Source: an uncultured Eubacteriales bacterium (lineage in GTDB: Bacteria > Bacillota > Clostridia > Oscillospirales > Oscillospiraceae). From it: a DNA stretch of 41,209 bases. The stretch covers positions 1-41,209 of the forward strand of contig ONPN01000040.1 in the NCBI GenBank assembly GCA_900319695.1, in the 5' to 3' direction. This document shows, one piece after another, positions 2,496-37,300 of this stretch. The notes beneath the pieces were generated by a model. That model saw only the letters and a program-made list of their open reading frames with translations. It was not told where the DNA came from and searched no databases. Position 1 is the first letter of the stretch; each line of letters starts with the position of its first letter. Made by a program: the position numbers and the translations under genes.

Positions 2496-3191
2496 CCCAT
2501 AGGTCATGAGGATCACACGGTCGGCGTATTGGGCGTGGGCTTTGTAGTCGTGGGCGGCGTAGAGGATGCCCTGCTGGTCGGCGCTCTCCTTGGGGGCGAT
2601 GGCGGTGGAGACAGGGCAGCCGAGGGGATGGAGGCGTTCCGCCGCGCGGGCGACGAAGGCGCTGTAGGCGTCGCGGTCAAAGGGATAGACGTACTCAAAG
2701 TTGATGTTCAGCCCGTAATAGCTCTTTTCGTTGATGAGCGTGACGATGTTCTCCATCAGTCTCGTCTGGACAGCCTCATCGGTCAGCAGGACGTGGGCCA
2801 GCTCCGAGGAGAAGCCGCCCGAGTCGCCGATATTTGTCACCGTGAGCAGGGGCGCGGTCGCCTGGGCGTAGGCCGCCTCGATCAGCCGCCGGTCATCGAT
2901 GGGGCGCAGCTCCCCCTCCGCGGTGGCCTGATGAGAGAAGGGGCAGAGCGTGGTAAACCAGGGCAGGGATTCCGTCAGCACAGCCTCGCGCACGAAGGGA
3001 TAGACATAGGCGTTGACCTCGATCTGCTCGCGCACGTCTGCGCTGCCGCCGGGGATCACAAGGCTCTGACCGATCACGAGGCGCGAGGGATCCGCAATCT
3101 GATTGAGCCGCGCCAGTTCCTCAACCGTGGTGCCGAAGCGCCGCGCGAGGGCGTAGAGACTGTCCCCCGCTTTGACAACATAAATCTGCAT
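2451..3191 (-). pseudogene. YaaH/SleL-like LysM-GH18 gene truncated by the element
   Basis: The gene begins with one LysM peptidoglycan-binding repeat (about residues 1-46, YVVKAGDSLYALARRFG), followed by the first part of a glycoside hydrolase 18 domain as in the spore-cortex or spore-germination proteins YaaH and SleL. The recognisable sequence ends at DRVILMTY. Family members go on for another hundred or more residues, but here the frame enters the mobile element and stops after about 15 foreign residues. The catalytic-loop glutamate is present in NINFEYV, while the aspartate usually before it is Asn. Of three consecutive ATG codons, the third (3189-3191) has proper spacing from GGAAAGGAG, which lies in the palindrome immediately upstream. 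The 3' half should lie beyond the left end of the element. Confidence 0.8.
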
Positions 3192-3197
3192 CATCAT

Positions 3198-3245
3198 GCT
3201 CCTTTCCGAAAACAGACTGCTACCAGTCTATTCCGAAAAGGAGCC
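3198..3245. repeat. 48-bp palindromic repeat, copy 1
   Basis: An imperfect palindrome with outer arms GCTCCTTTCCGAAA and TTCCGAAAAGGAGCC. It abuts the start codons of the YaaH-like gene and supplies its AGGAG ribosome binding site, so the site can pair within a hairpin. A second copy, about 80% identical by eye, lies at 6489-6537. The two copies bound the regulator/kinase/GGDEF cassette. Confidence 0.8.
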
Positions 3246-3336
3246 GGATAGGATTGATTAGGGATGAATGTTTGTACCTGTTTCGGCGCGAAAAAGGGGA
3301 TATTCCATATTGTCATACCGCAATTTTCCATTTTTC

Positions 3337-3365
3337 TTGCTTTTGCCGCCGCGTTGACTTATTAT
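3337..3365 (+). promoter_or_regulatory. Candidate promoter of the two-component operon
   Basis: TTGCTT (3337-3342) and TATTAT (3360-3365) are spaced by 17 bases. The -10 box overlaps the upstream candidate ATG at 3364. That argues for translation starting at the GTG at 3391, which would leave a leader of about 20 bases. The -35 box is weak. Confidence 0.4.
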
Positions 3366-3390
3366 GAGCCCAAACAAGGGGGTGTGCGGC

Positions 3391-3990
3391 GTGACCGGAG
3401 TTTTCGCGGAAAATCTGCGGAGGTTGAGAGAGGAAAAAGGTCTTTCGCAGAAACAGCTCGGCGAGCAGATGTTCGTGGGCCAGTCCACCGTCGCCCGGTG
3501 GGAAAACGGCAGCCGTCTGCCGGACGCCGCGATGATGCTTCGCCTTGCCGGCTGTCTCGGTGTGGATGCCAACACACTGCTCCATCTTGCGGCACAGAGC
3601 GAGGAATCGCCCTATGTCATCCTGGTGGACGACAGCAGGGTCATCCTCTCCGACGGCCTGGCCGTTCTGGAGGAGGTCATGCCGAAAGCTACGATCATGG
3701 GCTTTATCCGGCCGCAGGAAGCGATCGATTGTGCAAAGAGTCATCCGATTGCGCTGGCTGTTCTGGATATTGAGCTGGGAACGGCCAGCGGGCTTGACCT
3801 GAGCCGGAGGCTGACGGAGATCAATCCCCAGACCAATGTCGTGTTTCTGACCGCCTACCCCGACTATGCCCTCGACGCATGGGAAACCGAGGCCAGCGGG
3901 TTCCTGGTCAAACCGTTGACCCCGGCGCGTGTGCGGGAGCAGCTTAAAAAGCTGCGCTATCCCTTCCCCACGGGAGGCGCGGACGAGTGA
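3391..3990 (+). CDS. HTH-receiver response regulator
   Basis: A 199-residue cytoplasmic regulator with an N-terminal XRE/Cro-type helix-turn-helix (about 5-60; LSQKQLGEQM, STVARWENG) and a C-terminal CheY-like receiver (about 74-190). The receiver has the acidic pair Asp80-Asp81, phosphoacceptor Asp126, Thr154 and Lys174, all intact. Kinases of the type encoded next door usually pair with receiver-LytTR proteins; here the DNA-binding part is N-terminal and of a different fold. I chose the GTG at 3391 because AAGGGGG at 3376-3382 is well spaced from it. An in-frame ATG at 3364 would add nine residues but has no ribosome binding site and overlaps a -10 box. It overlaps the kinase gene by four bases (GTGA), so the two are translationally coupled partners. 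Confidence 0.85.
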   Translation: MTGVFAENLRRLREEKGLSQKQLGEQMFVGQSTVARWENGSRLPDAAMMLRLAGCLGVDANTLLHLAAQSEESPYVILVDDSRVILSDGLAVLEEVMPKATIMGFIRPQEAIDCAKSHPIALAVLDIELGTASGLDLSRRLTEINPQTNVVFLTAYPDYALDAWETEASGFLVKPLTPARVREQLKKLRYPFPTGGADE

Positions 3991-23795: not shown

Positions 23796-24626
23796 TTACT
23801 CCGTAAAATGAATGTGGTTGTTGATGTGGTCGCTGCAGAAGCAGTGGTAGCCCGCGCAGCGGGAGCAGTAGCGAAACTCCAGCTCCGGGTGGTCGACGTC
23901 CGTCCGGCCGCAGACGGCGCACTTGTGGGTGTAGAGCTTCTGCTCCTGCTCGCGCCGGATGCGCGCCGACTCGCGCTTGAAGTTGATGGTGCCCTTGCTC
24001 TGCCTGCGCGGCAGCATGGCCCTGAGCTCCCCGCCGCAGAAGATCAGGAAGTTCAAAATTGCCACCACCGGCAGCAGGTTCTCCGGGAAGGGCGTCGTAA
24101 TCACGGAGATGAGGAAGAACACCGCGTTCACCAGGGCCAGATATTTCATCTTGACCGGGATGAAGAACATGAACAGCACCTGCATGTCCGGAAACAGCGC
24201 CGCGAAGGAGAAGAACATCGACAGGAAAATGTAGGTCGAGCTCAGGTTCACCGGGACTCCCGTGATAAAGAAGATCAGGAAGCCGTAGAGAATTGTGAGG
24301 ATCACGCCGGTGAAGAAATAGATTGTAAACTGTCCGGTGCCCCACTCGCGCTCGAGCGTCGTGCCGATCCAGTAATAGAAGTACATGGCAATAAAAGCCA
24401 GGATACCGGTGGTCGGCGGGATGAACACAAAGCTGATCAGACGCCAGACCTGCCCGCGCAGGATAAGCGCCGGGTTGAACATCAGATAAAACATCAGCGG
24501 TTTGTTGATCGCGCCCAGCAGCCAGAAGGCCGCGTTTGCGATCACGACGTAGCGCATCAGGCCGGGGATGCCAAAATTCGGGTGGCGGCAGCAGAACTCT
24601 TCGATCTTTTTTCTCGGGTCTTTCAT
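23796..24626 (-). CDS. Rhomboid-like membrane protein lacking catalytic residues, with zinc ribbon
   Basis: A 276-residue protein with six membrane helices in about residues 24-200 and a cytoplasmic C-terminal zinc-binding tail (CAVC...CSRC...C..H...H, about 240-270). The membrane part has the rhomboid landmarks GQVWRLISFVF and GTTLEREWG. The HxxxN motif after WR is replaced by PPTTGILAF, the serine motif GxSG reads NLSST, and no catalytic His is seen. It is therefore probably an inactive rhomboid (iRhom/Derlin-like role) rather than a protease. AGGAG precedes the ATG at 24626. Confidence 0.78.
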   Translation of the reverse strand: MKDPRKKIEEFCCRHPNFGIPGLMRYVVIANAAFWLLGAINKPLMFYLMFNPALILRGQVWRLISFVFIPPTTGILAFIAMYFYYWIGTTLEREWGTGQFTIYFFTGVILTILYGFLIFFITGVPVNLSSTYIFLSMFFSFAALFPDMQVLFMFFIPVKMKYLALVNAVFFLISVITTPFPENLLPVVAILNFLIFCGGELRAMLPRRQSKGTINFKRESARIRREQEQKLYTHKCAVCGRTDVDHPELEFRYCSRCAGYHCFCSDHINNHIHFTE

Positions 24627-24780
24627 GTGGTTTCTCCTGAAAAGCAATGATTGTCTTACACTATACCCCCTCGGCGGAGGGATGTCTATAAAATTTTGTA
24701 AATTTGCAAACTGGGTCTTTCAAAAAAGAAGGGTGTATGATACTATGTAAACTGAGTTATTGTGGAGTGAGGTCAAAACT

Positions 24781-25551
24781 GTGGAAAAAGAAAAAGAAAA
24801 CGGCCGCGAGGTCTATGAAAACGACGTGATCGAGGGGCGCAACGCCGTCATTGAGGCGCTGCGCGCGGGTCGCGCCATTGATAAAATCTTTATTGCCAAG
24901 GGCGACGTGGACAAAACGCTGGGCCACATCGCCTCCAAAGCACGGGAGCAGGGCGTCGTGGTGGTCGAGGCCGACCGCCGCAAGCTCGACTTCATGAGCC
25001 GCACCAAGGCCCACCAGGGCGTGGTGGCTCTGGCCGCCGTGCGCGAGTACTGCGAGATCAAGGACATTCTCGCCGTGGCGGAGGAGCGGGGCGAGGCCCC
25101 CTTTGTCGTCGTATGCGACGAGATCAGCGATCCGCACAACCTGGGTGCGATCATCCGCAGCGCCGAGTGCGTGGGCGCCCACGGGGTCGTGATCCCCAAG
25201 CGCCGCAGCGCGGGGCTGACCGCGATCGTGGGCAAGGCCTCGGCGGGCGCCGCCGAGTATATGGCCATCGCCCGCGTGGCGAACATCTCCGCCGCGCTCA
25301 AGGAGCTCAAGGCCGCGGGTCTCTGGGTCTACGGCACGGCGGCGGACGGCGAGTCCGGGCTCTGGACGACGGAGCTCACCGGGCCGATCGCCCTGGTCAT
25401 CGGCTCCGAGGGTGACGGGATGAGCCGCCTTGTGCGCGAGAGCTGCGACTTTGTGCTCAGCCTCCCCATGCGCGGCAGGCTCAACTCTCTCAACGCCTCT
25501 GCGGCGGCGGCCGTCACGATGTACGAAATTTTGCGCCAGAGAAGCCGCTGA
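24781..25551 (+). CDS. rlmB: 23S rRNA/tRNA 2'-O-methyltransferase, RlmB/TrmH type
   Basis: A 256-residue SpoU-family methyltransferase that, as RlmB, methylates the 2'-O of G2251 in 23S rRNA. The N-terminal substrate-binding domain (GRNAVIEALRAG, about 18-85) is followed by the knotted SPOUT domain with motif 1 NLGAIIRSAE, motif 2 VIGSEGDGMSRLV and motif 3 LPMRGRLNSLNASAAAA. The start is the GTG at 24781, with GTGAGG upstream; an in-frame TTG at 24760 is less likely. It is followed after 45 bases by a very large gene in the same direction, with which it may be cotranscribed. Confidence 0.92.
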   Translation: MEKEKENGREVYENDVIEGRNAVIEALRAGRAIDKIFIAKGDVDKTLGHIASKAREQGVVVVEADRRKLDFMSRTKAHQGVVALAAVREYCEIKDILAVAEERGEAPFVVVCDEISDPHNLGAIIRSAECVGAHGVVIPKRRSAGLTAIVGKASAGAAEYMAIARVANISAALKELKAAGLWVYGTAADGESGLWTTELTGPIALVIGSEGDGMSRLVRESCDFVLSLPMRGRLNSLNASAAAAVTMYEILRQRSR

Positions 25552-25596
25552 TTTTTCGGCGCGCTTTTCCTTTCGAGATTAAAGGCAGGTATGACT

Positions 25597-28500
25597 ATGG
25601 ATGACAACAGCTGGGAACTGGGCAAGACTTCCGTGCCGCCGCGTCGGCAGGAGGCCCGGCACCCCTTCTATTTTGATGATACCGATGCGGGCGTTCCGGA
25701 CGAGGAGCTCCCCGATCTCCCCACCAGATACGACGAATCCTCCTACGTTCCGGACGATCCGGCGCAGGACAGCGTTGATGAATCCGCGCAGGACGATTTT
25801 CTGAACACCGATGTAAACCTGGACGAGTACCTCTCCTATGACGAGTACGAACAGCAGGAGGAGGAAGCCGGGGCAGAGGCCGTTGAAAGGCACACTGAAC
25901 TCCCCGCGAAAAAGAAGGGCGGCTTTTTCTCCTTTCTCAAGGGCAAGAGCTCGCCTGAGCATAAGTCGGAGGACAGGGTTTCGGAGGCCGTGCCCATGGC
26001 CGGGCCGGACGATTACCCGGACAGCGACGGCGCGCAGGACACTGACGGGGATGACTACGAGGCGGAATACCCCTCCGACAGCGAGCGGGACGCCGGGCGG
26101 CTCTACACCGTCCACGGCGGCAATCGCGGCAAGACCGAGCAGGAGGCGCGCGAGCTGATTGCCGAGCTGCAGGCCAAGTCCGGCGTGGTCCCCAAGCGCG
26201 AACGCAAAACCGCCGCCGACTACCGGGTGGAGCTCAGCGATCTGCTTGGCATGGAGGACGGCGAGGACGCCGATGTGCGCGTTTACGAGCCGGCCCCCGA
26301 GGAAAACGTTGAGTATGACTTTGACCTGGACCAGGCCCTGGACTACGACGCCGACGTCAAGCAGTACCGCGGCAAAAACGAGACTCCGGTCTACAAGCCC
26401 GACGCGGCCGAGCCGGAGATCGACGAGCGCTTCAATCTCGGCGGGCAGAGTGAGGTCGGCGCGATCTCCTACGGCGGCAGCGCGGTCGATCTGAGCGCGG
26501 ACGAGGACTACGTCCAGGCCCCGCAGACCGAGTATAACCCCAGCCAGTGGACGCCGGATTATGACGATCCTCTGGCCGAGCGCTCCGATACGGAAGAGCC
26601 GCCGAGAAAGCAGCACCGCTCCTTCCTCAGCCGCATGCGCAAGAAAAAGGAAGAGGCGGCCGCCGAGGCAGCCGAAGCCAAAAAGACAGAGGAGCCCGCG
26701 GAAGACGAGGCGATCACCGACGAGAAGGCCGGTCCCGCCATCTACGCGGTCAACGCCGAGTACCGGGATGAGCCGGACTACCTCTCCGCCCCGGAGAGCG
26801 TCGACAACACCGACTATGACGATGACGACTTTGACGCCTACGAAGAGGATGACCGCAGCCGGAAGTACCGGGAGTCGGACATGTACGCCCCGCCCAGCTT
26901 CAAGGAGTATCTGCTGTCCATCCTGGCGTCTGTCTGGCTCAAGCTGCGCGGCACCGTGCGCGGCCGCACCGCCGAGACCATGAGCGACACGGAGGAGGAT
27001 CTCGGCCCCGAGCTCACGCCCGCCGAGGCCTCCAAGTATTACGGCTCCTTCCTGCGCTCGATGAAATACCGGCTCCGCATCAGCGCCGGGGTGCTGGCCC
27101 TGCTGCTTTACATATCCATGGAGATGCCCGTCCCCGGCATGATGAAATCCCTGCCCGTGGCCGCAGCCTTCTGCTTCGGCCTGCAGGCGGTGATCCTGCT
27201 GCTGGCGCTGGATGTGGCGGCAAACGGGGTCTCAAACGCCGTGCGCCTGCGCTTCGGCGCGGACAGTCTCGCTGTCGTCGCCTGCTTCTTTACCGGCATT
27301 GACGCGCTGATCGTGGCGACGTCGGATACAGCCGCGCTGCACATGCCGCTGTGCGCCCTGTCCTCCTTCTCGGTGGTGGGGCTGCTGCTCGCGTCCTATC
27401 TCTCCGCCCGCGGTCTGCGGAAGGCCACGCGCGTGCCCGCCATCGGCAAGCATTTCTTCGCCGTCACGGGCGAGAACACGCTGGAAAAGGACCAGATCAC
27501 CCTGCTCAAATCCCTGCGCTCGGTGCGCGGCTTTGTCCGCCGAACCGAGGAAGCCGGGCCGGACGAGACGCTCTATACCCGCCTCGCCCCCGTGCTCTTT
27601 GTGCTTTCATTGGTGCTGTCACTGGTGGTGATGGTCATTAAAAAAGCCTATCCCGAGTTCCTGTATCTCTTCTCGGCCCATCTTGCGATGGCCGTCCCCT
27701 TCGGGGCGATGCTGTCCTTCTCCCTGCCCTTCTTCCTCGGCTCGAGCCGCATCTTCAAGTTCGGCGCGGCCATCGCCGGCTGGTCCGGCCTCTGCGATGT
27801 GGGCACCAGCAAGAACCTCATCGTCACCGACCGCGACCTCTTCCCGGAGAGCGCCGTCACCATTGAGAGCGTGCGCATCTTTGCCGACGAGGACGCGCAG
27901 AAGGTCATCTCCTACGCGGGCTCGATGATGCAGGCCTCCGGCTGCTGCGCGGCGGGCTGCTTTGGGGAGCTCATGCGCGAGACCGACTCCCCCGCCCGCT
28001 CCATCGACGGCTTTGAGGTCATGCCCGGCGGCGGGATGAAGGGCGTCATTGAGGGGCACGTTGTCCTCTGCGGCAGCACGGATCTGATGCGCCTGATGAA
28101 CGTGCGCATCCCCTTCCGCCTGACCGACAAGACGACGGTGCTGCTCGCCATCGACGGCATCCTCTACGGCATTTTCTCCCTCAAGTACGAGGGCCAGCCG
28201 CAGATCCGCCGCGCGCTCGTGGACCTGGTGCGCACCTCCCACCCGCCGGTGTTCGCCATCCGCGACTTCAACATCAACCCCGAGATGCTGCACAACACCT
28301 TCGACCTCGCCACCGACGGCTACGACTTCCCGCCCTATGTGGAGCGCTTCCGTCTGTCCGAGCCGTCTGACAACGCCAAGGATGAGCGTATCGCCGCCAT
28401 TCTCTGCAACGAGGGTCTGCCCCCGCTGACGAGCGTTGCGGACATCGGGCGCAGCATGTACATGGCGACGAATCTCAACCTGATCCTCAACCTGCTTGCG

Positions 28501-28638
28501 TCGGTGCTCGGCGTGGCGCTGGTGTTCATCCGCTTCCTCGCCACCGGCGAGAATAATCTGGCAACGCTCTTCCTCTTCATGCTGGTCTGCGCGCTGCCGG
28601 TCTGCCTGGTGAGCTTCTTTGTGAGCGTAAAGCGGTAA
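25597..28638 (+). CDS. Large membrane protein: acidic disordered half plus degenerate P-type-ATPase-like half
   Basis: A 1013-residue protein. Residues 1-~435 are low-complexity and highly acidic, with basic islands (PAKKKGGFFSFLKGK, RSFLSRMRKKKEE). Residues ~495-610 and ~665-720 contain about six membrane helices and ~960-1010 two more. The segment between them reads as the cytoplasmic part of a P-type ATPase: a hinge IFKFGAAIAGWSGLCDVGT, then NLIVTDRDLF where the phosphorylation motif DKTGTLT belongs (Asp745 kept, KTGT lost). Then come a nucleotide-domain-like GGGMKGVIEGHVVLCG (~811) and VLLAIDGILYGIFSLKYE as in VAIDGxxxGxxxLxD. The GDGxND motif is absent, so transport is unlikely; a sensor or scaffold role is inferred. 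Start: ATG 25597 (spacing from AAAGGCAGG), or 25591. Confidence 0.7.
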   Translation: MDDNSWELGKTSVPPRRQEARHPFYFDDTDAGVPDEELPDLPTRYDESSYVPDDPAQDSVDESAQDDFLNTDVNLDEYLSYDEYEQQEEEAGAEAVERHTELPAKKKGGFFSFLKGKSSPEHKSEDRVSEAVPMAGPDDYPDSDGAQDTDGDDYEAEYPSDSERDAGRLYTVHGGNRGKTEQEARELIAELQAKSGVVPKRERKTAADYRVELSDLLGMEDGEDADVRVYEPAPEENVEYDFDLDQALDYDADVKQYRGKNETPVYKPDAAEPEIDERFNLGGQSEVGAISYGGSAVDLSADEDYVQAPQTEYNPSQWTPDYDDPLAERSDTEEPPRKQHRSFLSRMRKKKEEAAAEAAEAKKTEEPAEDEAITDEKAGPAIYAVNAEYRDEPDYLSAPESVDNTDYDDDDFDAYEEDDRSRKYRESDMYAPPSFKEYLLSILASVWLKLRGTVRGRTAETMSDTEEDLGPELTPAEASKYYGSFLRSMKYRLRISAGVLALLLYISMEMPVPGMMKSLPVAAAFCFGLQAVILLLALDVAANGVSNAVRLRFGADSLAVVACFFTGIDALIVATSDTAALHMPLCALSSFSVVGLLLASYLSARGLRKATRVPAIGKHFFAVTGENTLEKDQITLLKSLRSVRGFVRRTEEAGPDETLYTRLAPVLFVLSLVLSLVVMVIKKAYPEFLYLFSAHLAMAVPFGAMLSFSLPFFLGSSRIFKFGAAIAGWSGLCDVGTSKNLIVTDRDLFPESAVTIESVRIFADEDAQKVISYAGSMMQASGCCAAGCFGELMRETDSPARSIDGFEVMPGGGMKGVIEGHVVLCGSTDLMRLMNVRIPFRLTDKTTVLLAIDGILYGIFSLKYEGQPQIRRALVDLVRTSHPPVFAIRDFNINPEMLHNTFDLATDGYDFPPYVERFRLSEPSDNAKDERIAAILCNEGLPPLTSVADIGRSMYMATNLNLILNLLASVLGVALVFIRFLATGENNLATLFLFMLVCALPVCLVSFFVSVKR

Positions 28639-35704: not shown

Positions 35705-37300
35705 ATGAAAGCATTTCGTTCAATATTGGCTCTGGCCGCGGCCCTGCTGCTGTGCCTGGGGCTGTGCGCGCCCGCTTTTGCCGCGGCCGAGGCGGAGGAT
35801 CCCTCCTGGGATGAGATCACGGCCAAGGTCATGGAGGAGTACAACATGACCGACAGCGGCGTGTACTGCGGCTATCTGAACCTTGTCACAGGTGAGGAGC
35901 ACTATATCAACGCCGACGAATACGCCATCGCGGCGAGCATGACCAAGCTTCCGCTGTGCATGTATTATACGGAGCTGCTTGCAAAGGGTGAATTTGACTG
36001 GAGCCCCTACGCGCCCTACTATACCTTTGAGGAGATCCGTGACAGAGTGCTCATTGATTCCAGCAACAGCGATTACGCGCTTTTGCTCGATCTTCTGGGC
36101 GGCTACGATCAGTTCCGGCTCCTCACCGCGCCCTACATGGGGGTTGAGCCCGGCTCGGAGCGCGTCGATATCACCATGTACAACAACTACACGCCGCGTG
36201 AGTTTATCAATTGCCTGAAGCTCCTGTACAACGAGCAGGAGCGCTTCCCCGGCATCATCGAGACCGCGCAGAAGGCGATGACCAATCAATTTTTTAAGCT
36301 CAACGAGCCGCGCTTCCGCATTGCGCACAAGCCCGGATGGATTTCGGAGGATTACATTCTCAACGACTGCGCCCTCTGCTTTACCACCCAGCCCATCGCC
36401 CTCGTCATGATGACGAAGAGCCCCAATAGTTCCGAGGAGTTTCTCAGCGCCTGGTGCACCGCCATGTGTGAGTATACCGAAAAACTCGCAAACAGGCCGG
36501 AGCCTACGCCTGAGCCTACGCCCGAGCCGACCCCGGCCCCCGTCGCTGCCGCGCCTGCCGCGCCGACGCCCGAACCCGTTCCCGACCGCGTGGCTCTGCC
36601 GCCGATCGTCCCCGCCGCGGCCATCGGCGCTTTTCTGGTGCTGGGTCTCATTCTGATCATCGTCCTCTGCGTGAAGTACCGTGCGCGTTTCATCGGGCTC
36701 TTCCTCGCCCTGATTCTGAGCGCGGGGGCCATGCTGCTGTCTGCGGCGGGCATGTACCACGGCACGATCTACGCCAAGCCCGACGGTGACCCCGCCGACA
36801 CAGTGCGCACCTTCTTCGACGCCGTGTGCGCGGGCGATTACACGACCGCCTACGCACAGCTTCGTGATTATTCGGACCTCGGTCTCGGTGCGGAGCCCGC
36901 AAGCCCCGCCGGTCAGAAGGTCTATCGGGCTCTGCACGACAGCTACTCCTATGCGCTTGAGGACGAGTGCCGTGTTGACAAGTTGGAGGCCGTGCAGGCG
37001 GTGACCGTGACCCGGCTGGATCTGGCCCGGCTGGAAGACGCCGTTGCGGCGGAGACCCAGCACCAGCTTGAGCGCATCGTCGCCGAGCGCCCGGTCGGCA
37101 AGGTCTATGACGAAAACCGCCAGGTGCTGCCGGATGTTGCGGACGAGGCCTATCTCGCCGCCCTGGACGCGGTACTGCAGAGCGCGCAGGACTACTATAC
37201 GGTCGACGAGCTGAACGTGCCGCTGAGCTATACGGACGGCCGCTGGCAGATCGTCGCGGATTCCCGGCTGCTGAGTGCGCTGGCCGGGGGGATTTCCTGA
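35705..37300 (+). CDS. Secreted class-A-beta-lactamase-like serine hydrolase with membrane helices and NTF2-like tail
   Basis: A 531-residue protein. A signal peptide (about 1-27, cleavage near AFA-AA) precedes a penicillin-binding/beta-lactamase-fold domain (about 35-260) with SxxK at Ser78-Lys81 (ASMTK), an SDN-like SSNSDY and HKPG in place of KTG. A proline-glutamate repeat (PEPTPEPTPEP) follows, then two membrane helices (about 300-320 and 325-345) and a ~150-residue extracytoplasmic domain of NTF2-like look. It could act on peptidoglycan peptides or be a non-enzymatic binder; a resistance beta-lactamase is unlikely. It is the first gene of an envelope operon, 15 bases before the next gene. 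Confidence 0.8.
   Translation: MKAFRSILALAAALLLCLGLCAPAFAAAEAEDPSWDEITAKVMEEYNMTDSGVYCGYLNLVTGEEHYINADEYAIAASMTKLPLCMYYTELLAKGEFDWSPYAPYYTFEEIRDRVLIDSSNSDYALLLDLLGGYDQFRLLTAPYMGVEPGSERVDITMYNNYTPREFINCLKLLYNEQERFPGIIETAQKAMTNQFFKLNEPRFRIAHKPGWISEDYILNDCALCFTTQPIALVMMTKSPNSSEEFLSAWCTAMCEYTEKLANRPEPTPEPTPEPTPAPVAAAPAAPTPEPVPDRVALPPIVPAAAIGAFLVLGLILIIVLCVKYRARFIGLFLALILSAGAMLLSAAGMYHGTIYAKPDGDPADTVRTFFDAVCAGDYTTAYAQLRDYSDLGLGAEPASPAGQKVYRALHDSYSYALEDECRVDKLEAVQAVTVTRLDLARLEDAVAAETQHQLERIVAERPVGKVYDENRQVLPDVADEAYLAALDAVLQSAQDYYTVDELNVPLSYTDGRWQIVADSRLLSALAGGIS

Follow-up and report, generated by a model that had tools for sequence, protein, structure and literature searches.

P-type ATPases are among the best-studied transporters. 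A dead catalytic fold may also be conserved for a regulatory or scaffold role, as in iRhoms and bacterial pseudokinases, and scaffold and sensor are common jobs of such pseudoenzymes. For the animal protein TMEM94/ERMA the catalytic status is disputed, as the accessible parts of one paper argue against P-type catalysis (PMC12134183) and those of another for Asp-dependent Mg2+ uptake (PMC13322241). Here we describe a gene located in a 41,209-nucleotide stretch of DNA from an uncultured Eubacteriales bacterium (contig ONPN01000040.1, assembly GCA_900319695.1; the whole stretch is called the window hereafter, and its genome G000). The gene product joins a long acidic N-terminal arm to a C-terminal half that is homologous to P1B metal ATPases and has lost the pump motifs. 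Its relatives form a single-copy family present in nearly all sampled genomes of the order, and we favour, on balance, the reading that this pseudo-pump is a vertically inherited descendant of P1B (CopA-like) ATPases working as a membrane-anchored scaffold or sensor.

Homology to P1B metal pumps and fate of the pump motifs

The open reading frame (ORF) extends from position 25591 to 28638 on the plus strand and encodes 1015 amino acids. It has two in-frame ATG codons, at 25591 and 25597, and given the Shine-Dalgarno-like sequence AAAGGCAGG, read ahead of both at 25581-25589 on the same strand, the second is as likely to be the start as the first. The full protein alone matched no Pfam family, its C-terminal half gave one chance match (DUF6594, E=2.7), and a single-sequence search of the PDB was weak (best E=0.19). 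The C-terminal half matched the NCBIfam heavy-metal P-type ATPase model TIGR01525 with E=3.3e-6 and 26.1 bits, under the curated cut-off of 346.25 bits. When 59 family members were scanned singly, 35 matched TIGR01525 (best 9.4e-15) and 31 the CopA model PRK10671 (best 7.3e-21), so that the P-type resemblance is not a matter of chance. Pfam gave weak PF00122 matches in 2 of the 59 (best 0.0043), and no Pfam or NCBIfam model reached its cut-off for the family in the scans made.

A profile of 59 rows (A3) was used for the searches of the PDB and of the class. It overcame the narrow reach of an earlier profile of 16 close relatives (A2), which had picked up only 5 of 291 genomes of the class and overlooked several members of the order. 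In the PDB, A3 matched 22 distinct sequences, every one of them labelled a copper, zinc, cadmium or cation-transporting ATPase, the best being CopA (3rfu, E=6.9e-34); the membrane part of that alignment was weak (13.3 bits). Ordinary pumps across the class were also found by A3, with E down to 1e-38 over profile positions ~190-469, and every full pump ORF fetched among these matches has both DKTGT and GDGxND. The homology of the C-terminal half to P1B metal ATPases is thus certain at the level of sequence profiles.

The main alignment comprised 101 family members and 22 pumps. It omitted the fragment from L079, whose family gene is interrupted by an in-frame stop, as well as two incomplete pump ORFs of locus L192, and L020 and loci of identical sequence had been removed from the family set. 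Two odd pumps of the window's genome (L002 and L003, described below) were excluded from the pump side, leaving 20, in the comparisons of hydropathy, loop length, motif-III Lys and Y866. Over the shared columns the hydropathy of the family followed that of the 20 pumps with r = 0.855 and coinciding peaks, and the P1B topology of MA, MB and M1-M6 was found. Residues ~480-1012 hold eight membrane-length hydrophobic segments with a soluble part of ~240 residues between the sixth and the seventh; a ninth, very short peak (855-858) falls in the soluble part in family and pumps alike. The first four segments (about residues 496-512, 524-544, 562-578 and 586-605; 27076-27405, +) correspond by hydropathy over the alignment to MA, MB, M1 and M2, the next two align with M3 and M4 (27586-27732, +), and the last two, again by hydropathy, with M5 and M6 (28483-28614, +).

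By pattern search, DKTGT and D[KR][TS]G occur in none of the 101 C-terminal halves, and neither do GDGxND, SEHP, TGES or CPC; stray matches were limited to TGE[ST] with Thr in one member (L038) and HP[LI] in four. The 20 lowest-scoring of the members fetched contain none of four pump motifs. In place of DKTGTLT the window protein has TDRDLFP (residues 746-752; 27826-27846, +), which aligns without gaps and puts T746 on the phospho-acceptor column, its register being anchored by the preceding hydrophobic strand and the following G754. This column holds T in 47, D in 18, S in 13 and R in 7 of the 101 members, and D in 21 of the 22 pumps. The GDGxND columns are empty in all 101, and the motif must be called deleted rather than merely mutated because the stretch of residues 892-960 has a median of 68 amino acids in the family versus 100 in pumps. 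This shortened end of the P domain (28267-28476, +) has also lost the motif-III Lys, found in 2 of 101 members as against 20 of 20 pumps. The actuator-domain loop (residues 606-665; 27406-27585, +) is about halved (median 65 versus 141 amino acids), and in its TGES Ser column no member has Ser and 97 have gaps. The His of the nucleotide domain is present in none of 101. In M4, CPC has become VPF (residues 702-704); Cys occurs at 702 in 8 and at 704 in 2 members, and P703 is kept in 72.

Other residues were retained or newly fixed. The Asp of TGD (D892) is kept in 97 of 101 members, and so are the glycines G815 (99) and G828 (all 101) of the nucleotide-domain-like part (27847-28266, +), the part that lost SEHP. 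The family signature [T/D]DxDLFP, which replaces DKTGTLT, has D747 in 79, D/E749 in 95, F/Y751 in 98 and P752 in 86 members. Further new conserved residues are Y866 (97 of 101; Asp in 20 of 20 pumps) and N894 (82 of 101), the latter added next to the kept Asp in AIRDFNINP (28255-28281, +). By sequence, the family lacks the motifs that a pump needs to be phosphorylated, to bind ATP in the ordinary way and to be dephosphorylated, and their loss strongly supports a protein dead as a pump.

A preliminary description, made from the letters of this DNA, had seen an acidic disordered half joined to a dead P-type-ATPase-like half, with DKTGTLT turned into TDRDLFP and GDGxND missing. The analysis bears out each of these points, with a net charge of about -74 in the arm and the pump motifs lost in all 101 relatives aligned, and adds the halved actuator loop. 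The profile matches among relatives that it had looked to as a check were obtained, and its statement that no described family has this layout agrees with the model scans. It had placed the start at 25597, and its Asp745 (D747 in the 1015-residue numbering), for which it had raised invariance, proved variable.

Distribution, descent and gene neighbourhood

The order of the window's genome is probably Oscillospirales, judging by the names of its relatives; the close relatives that bear names are metagenome-assembled genomes of Ruminococcaceae, Oscillospiraceae and Clostridia. Among 108 genomes of the order, all at least 97% complete except the window's own (79%), the gene was found in 105 at E<=1e-45, with one match each, the sole exception being a gene divided between two contigs. 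Among 341 genomes sampled from the class, 14 of the 15 from the order scored at least 278 bits over nearly the full profile and, among the matches listed, none of the other 326 exceeded 131.8 bits. In a phylum sample of 249 genomes the two positives both belonged to the window's own family. No family member was found outside the order in the class and phylum samples. A tree built by a quick method from 63 members and 22 pumps places the family on one side of a branch with a Shimodaira-Hasegawa-like approximate likelihood ratio test (SH-aLRT) support of 100; the tree has several long branches and pumps as its sole outgroup, and does not settle the pump subfamily of origin. The ratio of nonsynonymous to synonymous substitution rates (dN/dS) is 0.03-0.15 for the C-terminal half (9 pairs) and 0.18-0.39 for the arm (3 pairs of relatives).

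Directly upstream of the gene, 39 bp away, lies a SpoU-family rRNA 2'-O-methyltransferase gene on the same strand (24760-25551, +; PF00588 E=2.3e-40, PF08032 E=1e-19), which we take to be rlmB-like, Pfam supplying the family only. The preliminary description had pointed to this neighbourhood, and it proved constant. Across the 101 rows, 7 of which have too little upstream sequence, 93 of the 94 testable loci have an rlmB-like gene immediately upstream in the same orientation; in the last one (L014) it lies at 2709-3440 inside an over-called ORF start, and the linkage is thus 94 of 94. The rlmB-like proteins of these loci are 43-100% identical to that of the window. The gap to the family gene has a median of 23 bp in 90 loci, with two long gaps of 206 and 804 bp and 15 negative values that represent overlaps or over-called starts. 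Three members (L022, L030 and L041) are included in the rlmB count and absent from the gap statistics and from the count of arm motifs given below. In the three genomes of the order in which the gene is missing (G063, G090 and G104), the best rlmB-like matches are just 26-30% identical, compared with 43-100% beside the gene, and the pair is therefore missing together, by an assembly gap or by joint loss. An EF-G-like gene, so named from Pfam on one member of its cluster, follows next downstream in 20 of 53 loci and is not universal. The constant rlmB-like neighbour, together with the EF-G paralogue in some lineages, suggests that the pseudo-pump may be made in step with ribosome production, serving growth or translation at the membrane. 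The preliminary description could not show that the gene is no isolated chimera; the order keeps it as a single-copy core gene with a constant rlmB-like neighbour.

In the window itself, a weak terminator-like site at 25546-25561 between the two genes would speak against a single operon; it was given no weight, because the scan found 6 such sites, compared with 3.5 (sd 1.8) in shuffles. The downstream neighbour is a family-3 glycosidase gene on the opposite strand. Upstream of the rlmB-like gene, on the other strand, a Der1/rhomboid-like membrane protein is encoded at 23796-24647 (PF04511, E=8.5e-8), and its cluster also occurs two genes ahead of the family gene in L004 and L007. A 531-amino-acid ORF at 35705-37300 contains a beta-lactamase-like domain (PF13354, E=1.5e-11).

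Three degenerate or split relatives deserve mention. The family gene of genome G022 (L079:4164-6560) is split between arm and membrane part by one in-frame TGA, which may mark a real split, recoding or an error. The window's genome encodes a second degenerate P1B-like protein (L003; G000:C50:17336-18982, -) with DKSGIF, SED for TGD and no GDGxND; its best other relatives in 59 genomes of the order are 29% identical, and it seems to be local, unlike the rlmB-linked family. In the same genome, L002 (G000:C48:23890-25986, -) is a P1B-like pump that keeps DKTGTIT and has GEGENS for GDGxND, ARA for CPC and a basic low-complexity N-terminus.

The acidic arm and a motif shared with LspA

The arm (residues 1-472; 25591-27006, +) contains 26.7% D+E and 11.0% K+R; "disordered" refers here to this composition and not to the output of a disorder-prediction program. 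It includes a basic-aromatic island, KKKGGFFSFLKGK (residues 107-119; 25909-25947, +), a second basic island by composition, RKQHRSFLSRMRKKK (residues 339-353; 26605-26649, +), and a juxtamembrane segment (residues 432-464; 26884-26982, +) that is conserved across the 16 closest sequences and may form an amphipathic helix. Basic-aromatic islands were counted in 26 of 92 arms, versus a mean of 7.8 and a maximum of 17 in shuffles. Of the 82 members first collected, 76 have an arm of more than 100 amino acids, and some of the other six are truncated by contig ends. The longest arm found (L070:5889-10136) has ~870 amino acids and contains KKSFWSKWFS in four near-repeats, with acidic runs after them.

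Many arms carry a ten-residue motif with the consensus [FY]S[LVI][DE]DILAE[FY]. Of the 92 arms with 100 amino acids or more, 57 contain a motif whose leave-one-out score is higher than in each of 60 shuffles of that arm, and in 51 of these 57 it lies within the first 70 residues. A fixed strict expression matched 22 of 76 arms, whereas 200 shuffles gave no match at all. The DNA pattern for [DE][DE]I[LF]AE[FY] gave 9 matches in 26 genomes of the window's family, 4 of them at the C-terminal end of a long-tailed LspA, 2 in the arm itself and 3 elsewhere. In 197 genomes of the order it gave 39 matches, versus 4 for the reversed control. Translation of 28 of these loci yielded 13 with the full motif and two without an open frame, the rest being ordinary or chance matches; 12 of the 13 lie at N-termini of the pseudo-pump family (two, L127 and L132, on frames cut by contig ends and assigned by likeness) and one is a further LspA.

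Altogether, five LspA proteins bear the motif at their C-terminal tip, and all match PF01252 at 1e-30 or better. The one from the window's genome, on contig C35 (L111:1498-2547, -; PF01252 E=8.1e-33), has a long disordered tail with EDFSLDDILAEFK at its end and DPFAAWE as a further element; similar tails are found in L106, L110, L112 and L139. LspA was detected in 68 of 69 genomes of the order, its best frame being at most 200 amino acids long in 47 of the 68, and the motif occurred in none of 28 further LspA loci recognised by a crude expression (30 loci fetched). Sharing of the motif thus concerns a subset, most LspA proteins of the order being without such a tail.

Possible functions and relation to known systems

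The loss of the pump motifs, the new signature at the former active site, the purifying selection and the near-universal, exclusive presence in the order together fit a re-employed pseudoenzyme: what was found is a degenerate catalytic fold under purifying selection. Work as a scaffold or sensor is the most likely function. The core of eight membrane helices has been retained from the pump ancestor, and so has the P/N headpiece with its glycine turns; in a scaffold or sensor the headpiece would hold or report a bound partner or ligand via a conserved surface of its own ([T/D]DxDLFP, Y866 and RDFNITP). The long acidic arm would extend into the cytoplasm, where a short motif forming an amphipathic helix would catch partners, and the basic-aromatic islands of the arm may touch the membrane or nucleic acid; the recurrence of a short motif makes docking a fitting role for the arm. 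The preliminary description had proposed a sensor, scaffold or ion-buffering protein. Its first two suggestions would agree with the conserved signature, the purifying selection and the docking-like motif, and ion buffering found no specific support, since the arm is variable and three members, all from a single family within the order, lack it.

Several observations weigh against the scaffold or sensor reading. Asp stands in the acceptor column in 18 of the 101 members and an acid is found at 746 or 747 in 96, and given these remnants some residual chemistry is conceivable. The rlmB linkage may be mere operon heritage. The arm cannot be a universal function, because the ten-residue motif is absent from the arms of the window protein and its nearest relatives and because L068, L085 and L206, which belong to the same family within the order, are armless. 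Moreover, the window's genome has the motif in LspA and lacks it in the pseudo-pump, an argument against the two being strictly paired. It is rather unlikely, though worth stating, that an order-defining membrane hub exists in which one partner gathers the pseudo-pump and, in some of these bacteria, LspA, perhaps with the ribosome-modifying enzymes of the same operon, via a shared docking peptide; if so, the hub would be a centre of membrane biogenesis or translation peculiar to the order.

The main rival is that the protein still moves something, as an ATP-independent channel, a carrier, a lipid scramblase or an unorthodox ATPase with Mg2+ bound by the acids at 746, 747 and 749, because the membrane core is kept and the status of TMEM94/ERMA is disputed. 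The retained M4 proline and the presence of an acid at 746 or 747 plus one at 749 in 91 of 101 members would suit it, and ERMA, which also lacks TGES and GDGxND, reportedly needs its Asp for Mg2+ uptake according to the accessible part of the source (PMC13322241). With the metal site lost from M4 and TGES, GDGxND and the N-domain His all gone, and with a cryo-EM study arguing, in the part available, that TMEM94 is no P-type ATPase (PMC12134183), we regard residual transport as unlikely, yet as an alternative to be reckoned with. A role as non-catalytic subunit of an active P1B pump in the same cell, the arm being a metal sensor, would explain the ancestry and topology common to the two, and the window's genome does contain one pump with intact DKTGTIT and GDGIND (L001). 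Among the fetched loci, however, the profile detected a further pump-like ORF close by in L069 alone (at a distance of two genes, on the opposite strand) and perhaps in L202 (24 bits), and the M4 metal ligands are lost, so that we give this explanation little credence.

The D747-x-D749 pair has the DxD spacing of HAD motif I, and the P domain might have reverted to a HAD-type phosphatase of a small phosphate ester with a shifted motif I. Acids at both 747 and 749 in 82 of 101 members and T or S in the motif-II column 890 in 58 are in its favour. Nevertheless, the gapless alignment puts T746 and not D747 in the nucleophile column, leaving the DxD one residue off; in 11 of 101 members residue 746 is acidic and 747 is not; and the motif-III Lys is all but gone, with the motif-IV acids (those of GDGxND) found in none. 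Such a phosphatase is therefore very improbable. A decaying pseudogene or an assembly artefact, which the loss of all pump motifs might have suggested, was rejected in view of the dN/dS of 0.03-0.15, the single copy in 105 of 108 genomes and the new conserved motifs, and has practically no chance of being right. A near-universal, lineage-exclusive single-copy gene without a family model is a strong candidate for an unrecognised core process, and both its linkage to rlmB and the peptide it has in common with LspA render it testable.

Among the papers listed by searches of one open-access library, none dealt with a family of pseudo-P-type ATPases in bacteria, with this gene or with such LspA tails, a result that leaves room for a FUPA class including the family. 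A word check of the accessible text of one review found no "inactive", "dead" or "FUPA", and "pseudo" in a species name only (PMC10654040).

Of the described systems, the P1B pumps of the CopA/ZntA type (TIGR01525, PRK10671; PDB 3rfu) are homologous to the family in M3-M4 and in the P and N domains, and share with it the eight membrane segments, the TGD Asp and the N-domain glycines. The family differs from them in the absence of DKTGT, GDGxND, TGES, SEHP and CPC, in its halved actuator loop, in scores far under the family cut-offs, and in a long acidic arm where pumps have metal-binding domains. The iRhoms and pseudokinases are of other folds. As far as the available parts of the papers go, TMEM94/ERMA resembles the family in its P-type architecture with A-, P- and N-like domains, in the absence of TGES and in the replacement of GDGxND (PMC12134183, PMC13322241). 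It is, however, an animal protein of ten helices, whereas the bacterial family is of P1B origin, has eight helices by hydropathy and has GDGxND deleted. It also keeps the Asp in DKQGI, at which position the window protein has T746 and the 18 family members with Asp never have a following Lys in a D[KR][TS]G context. The accessible text on the apicomplexan guanylate cyclase PfGCbeta likewise describes a degenerate P-type domain retained within a signalling protein, but one that is P4-ATPase-like, eukaryotic and fused to a cyclase (PMC6592433). FUPA 24 (CtpH/CtpI of mycobacteria) comprises P-type homologues with a very long N-terminal segment which, according to the part of the source available, keep the functional motifs in their C-terminal part, DKTGTL included (PMC3573892).

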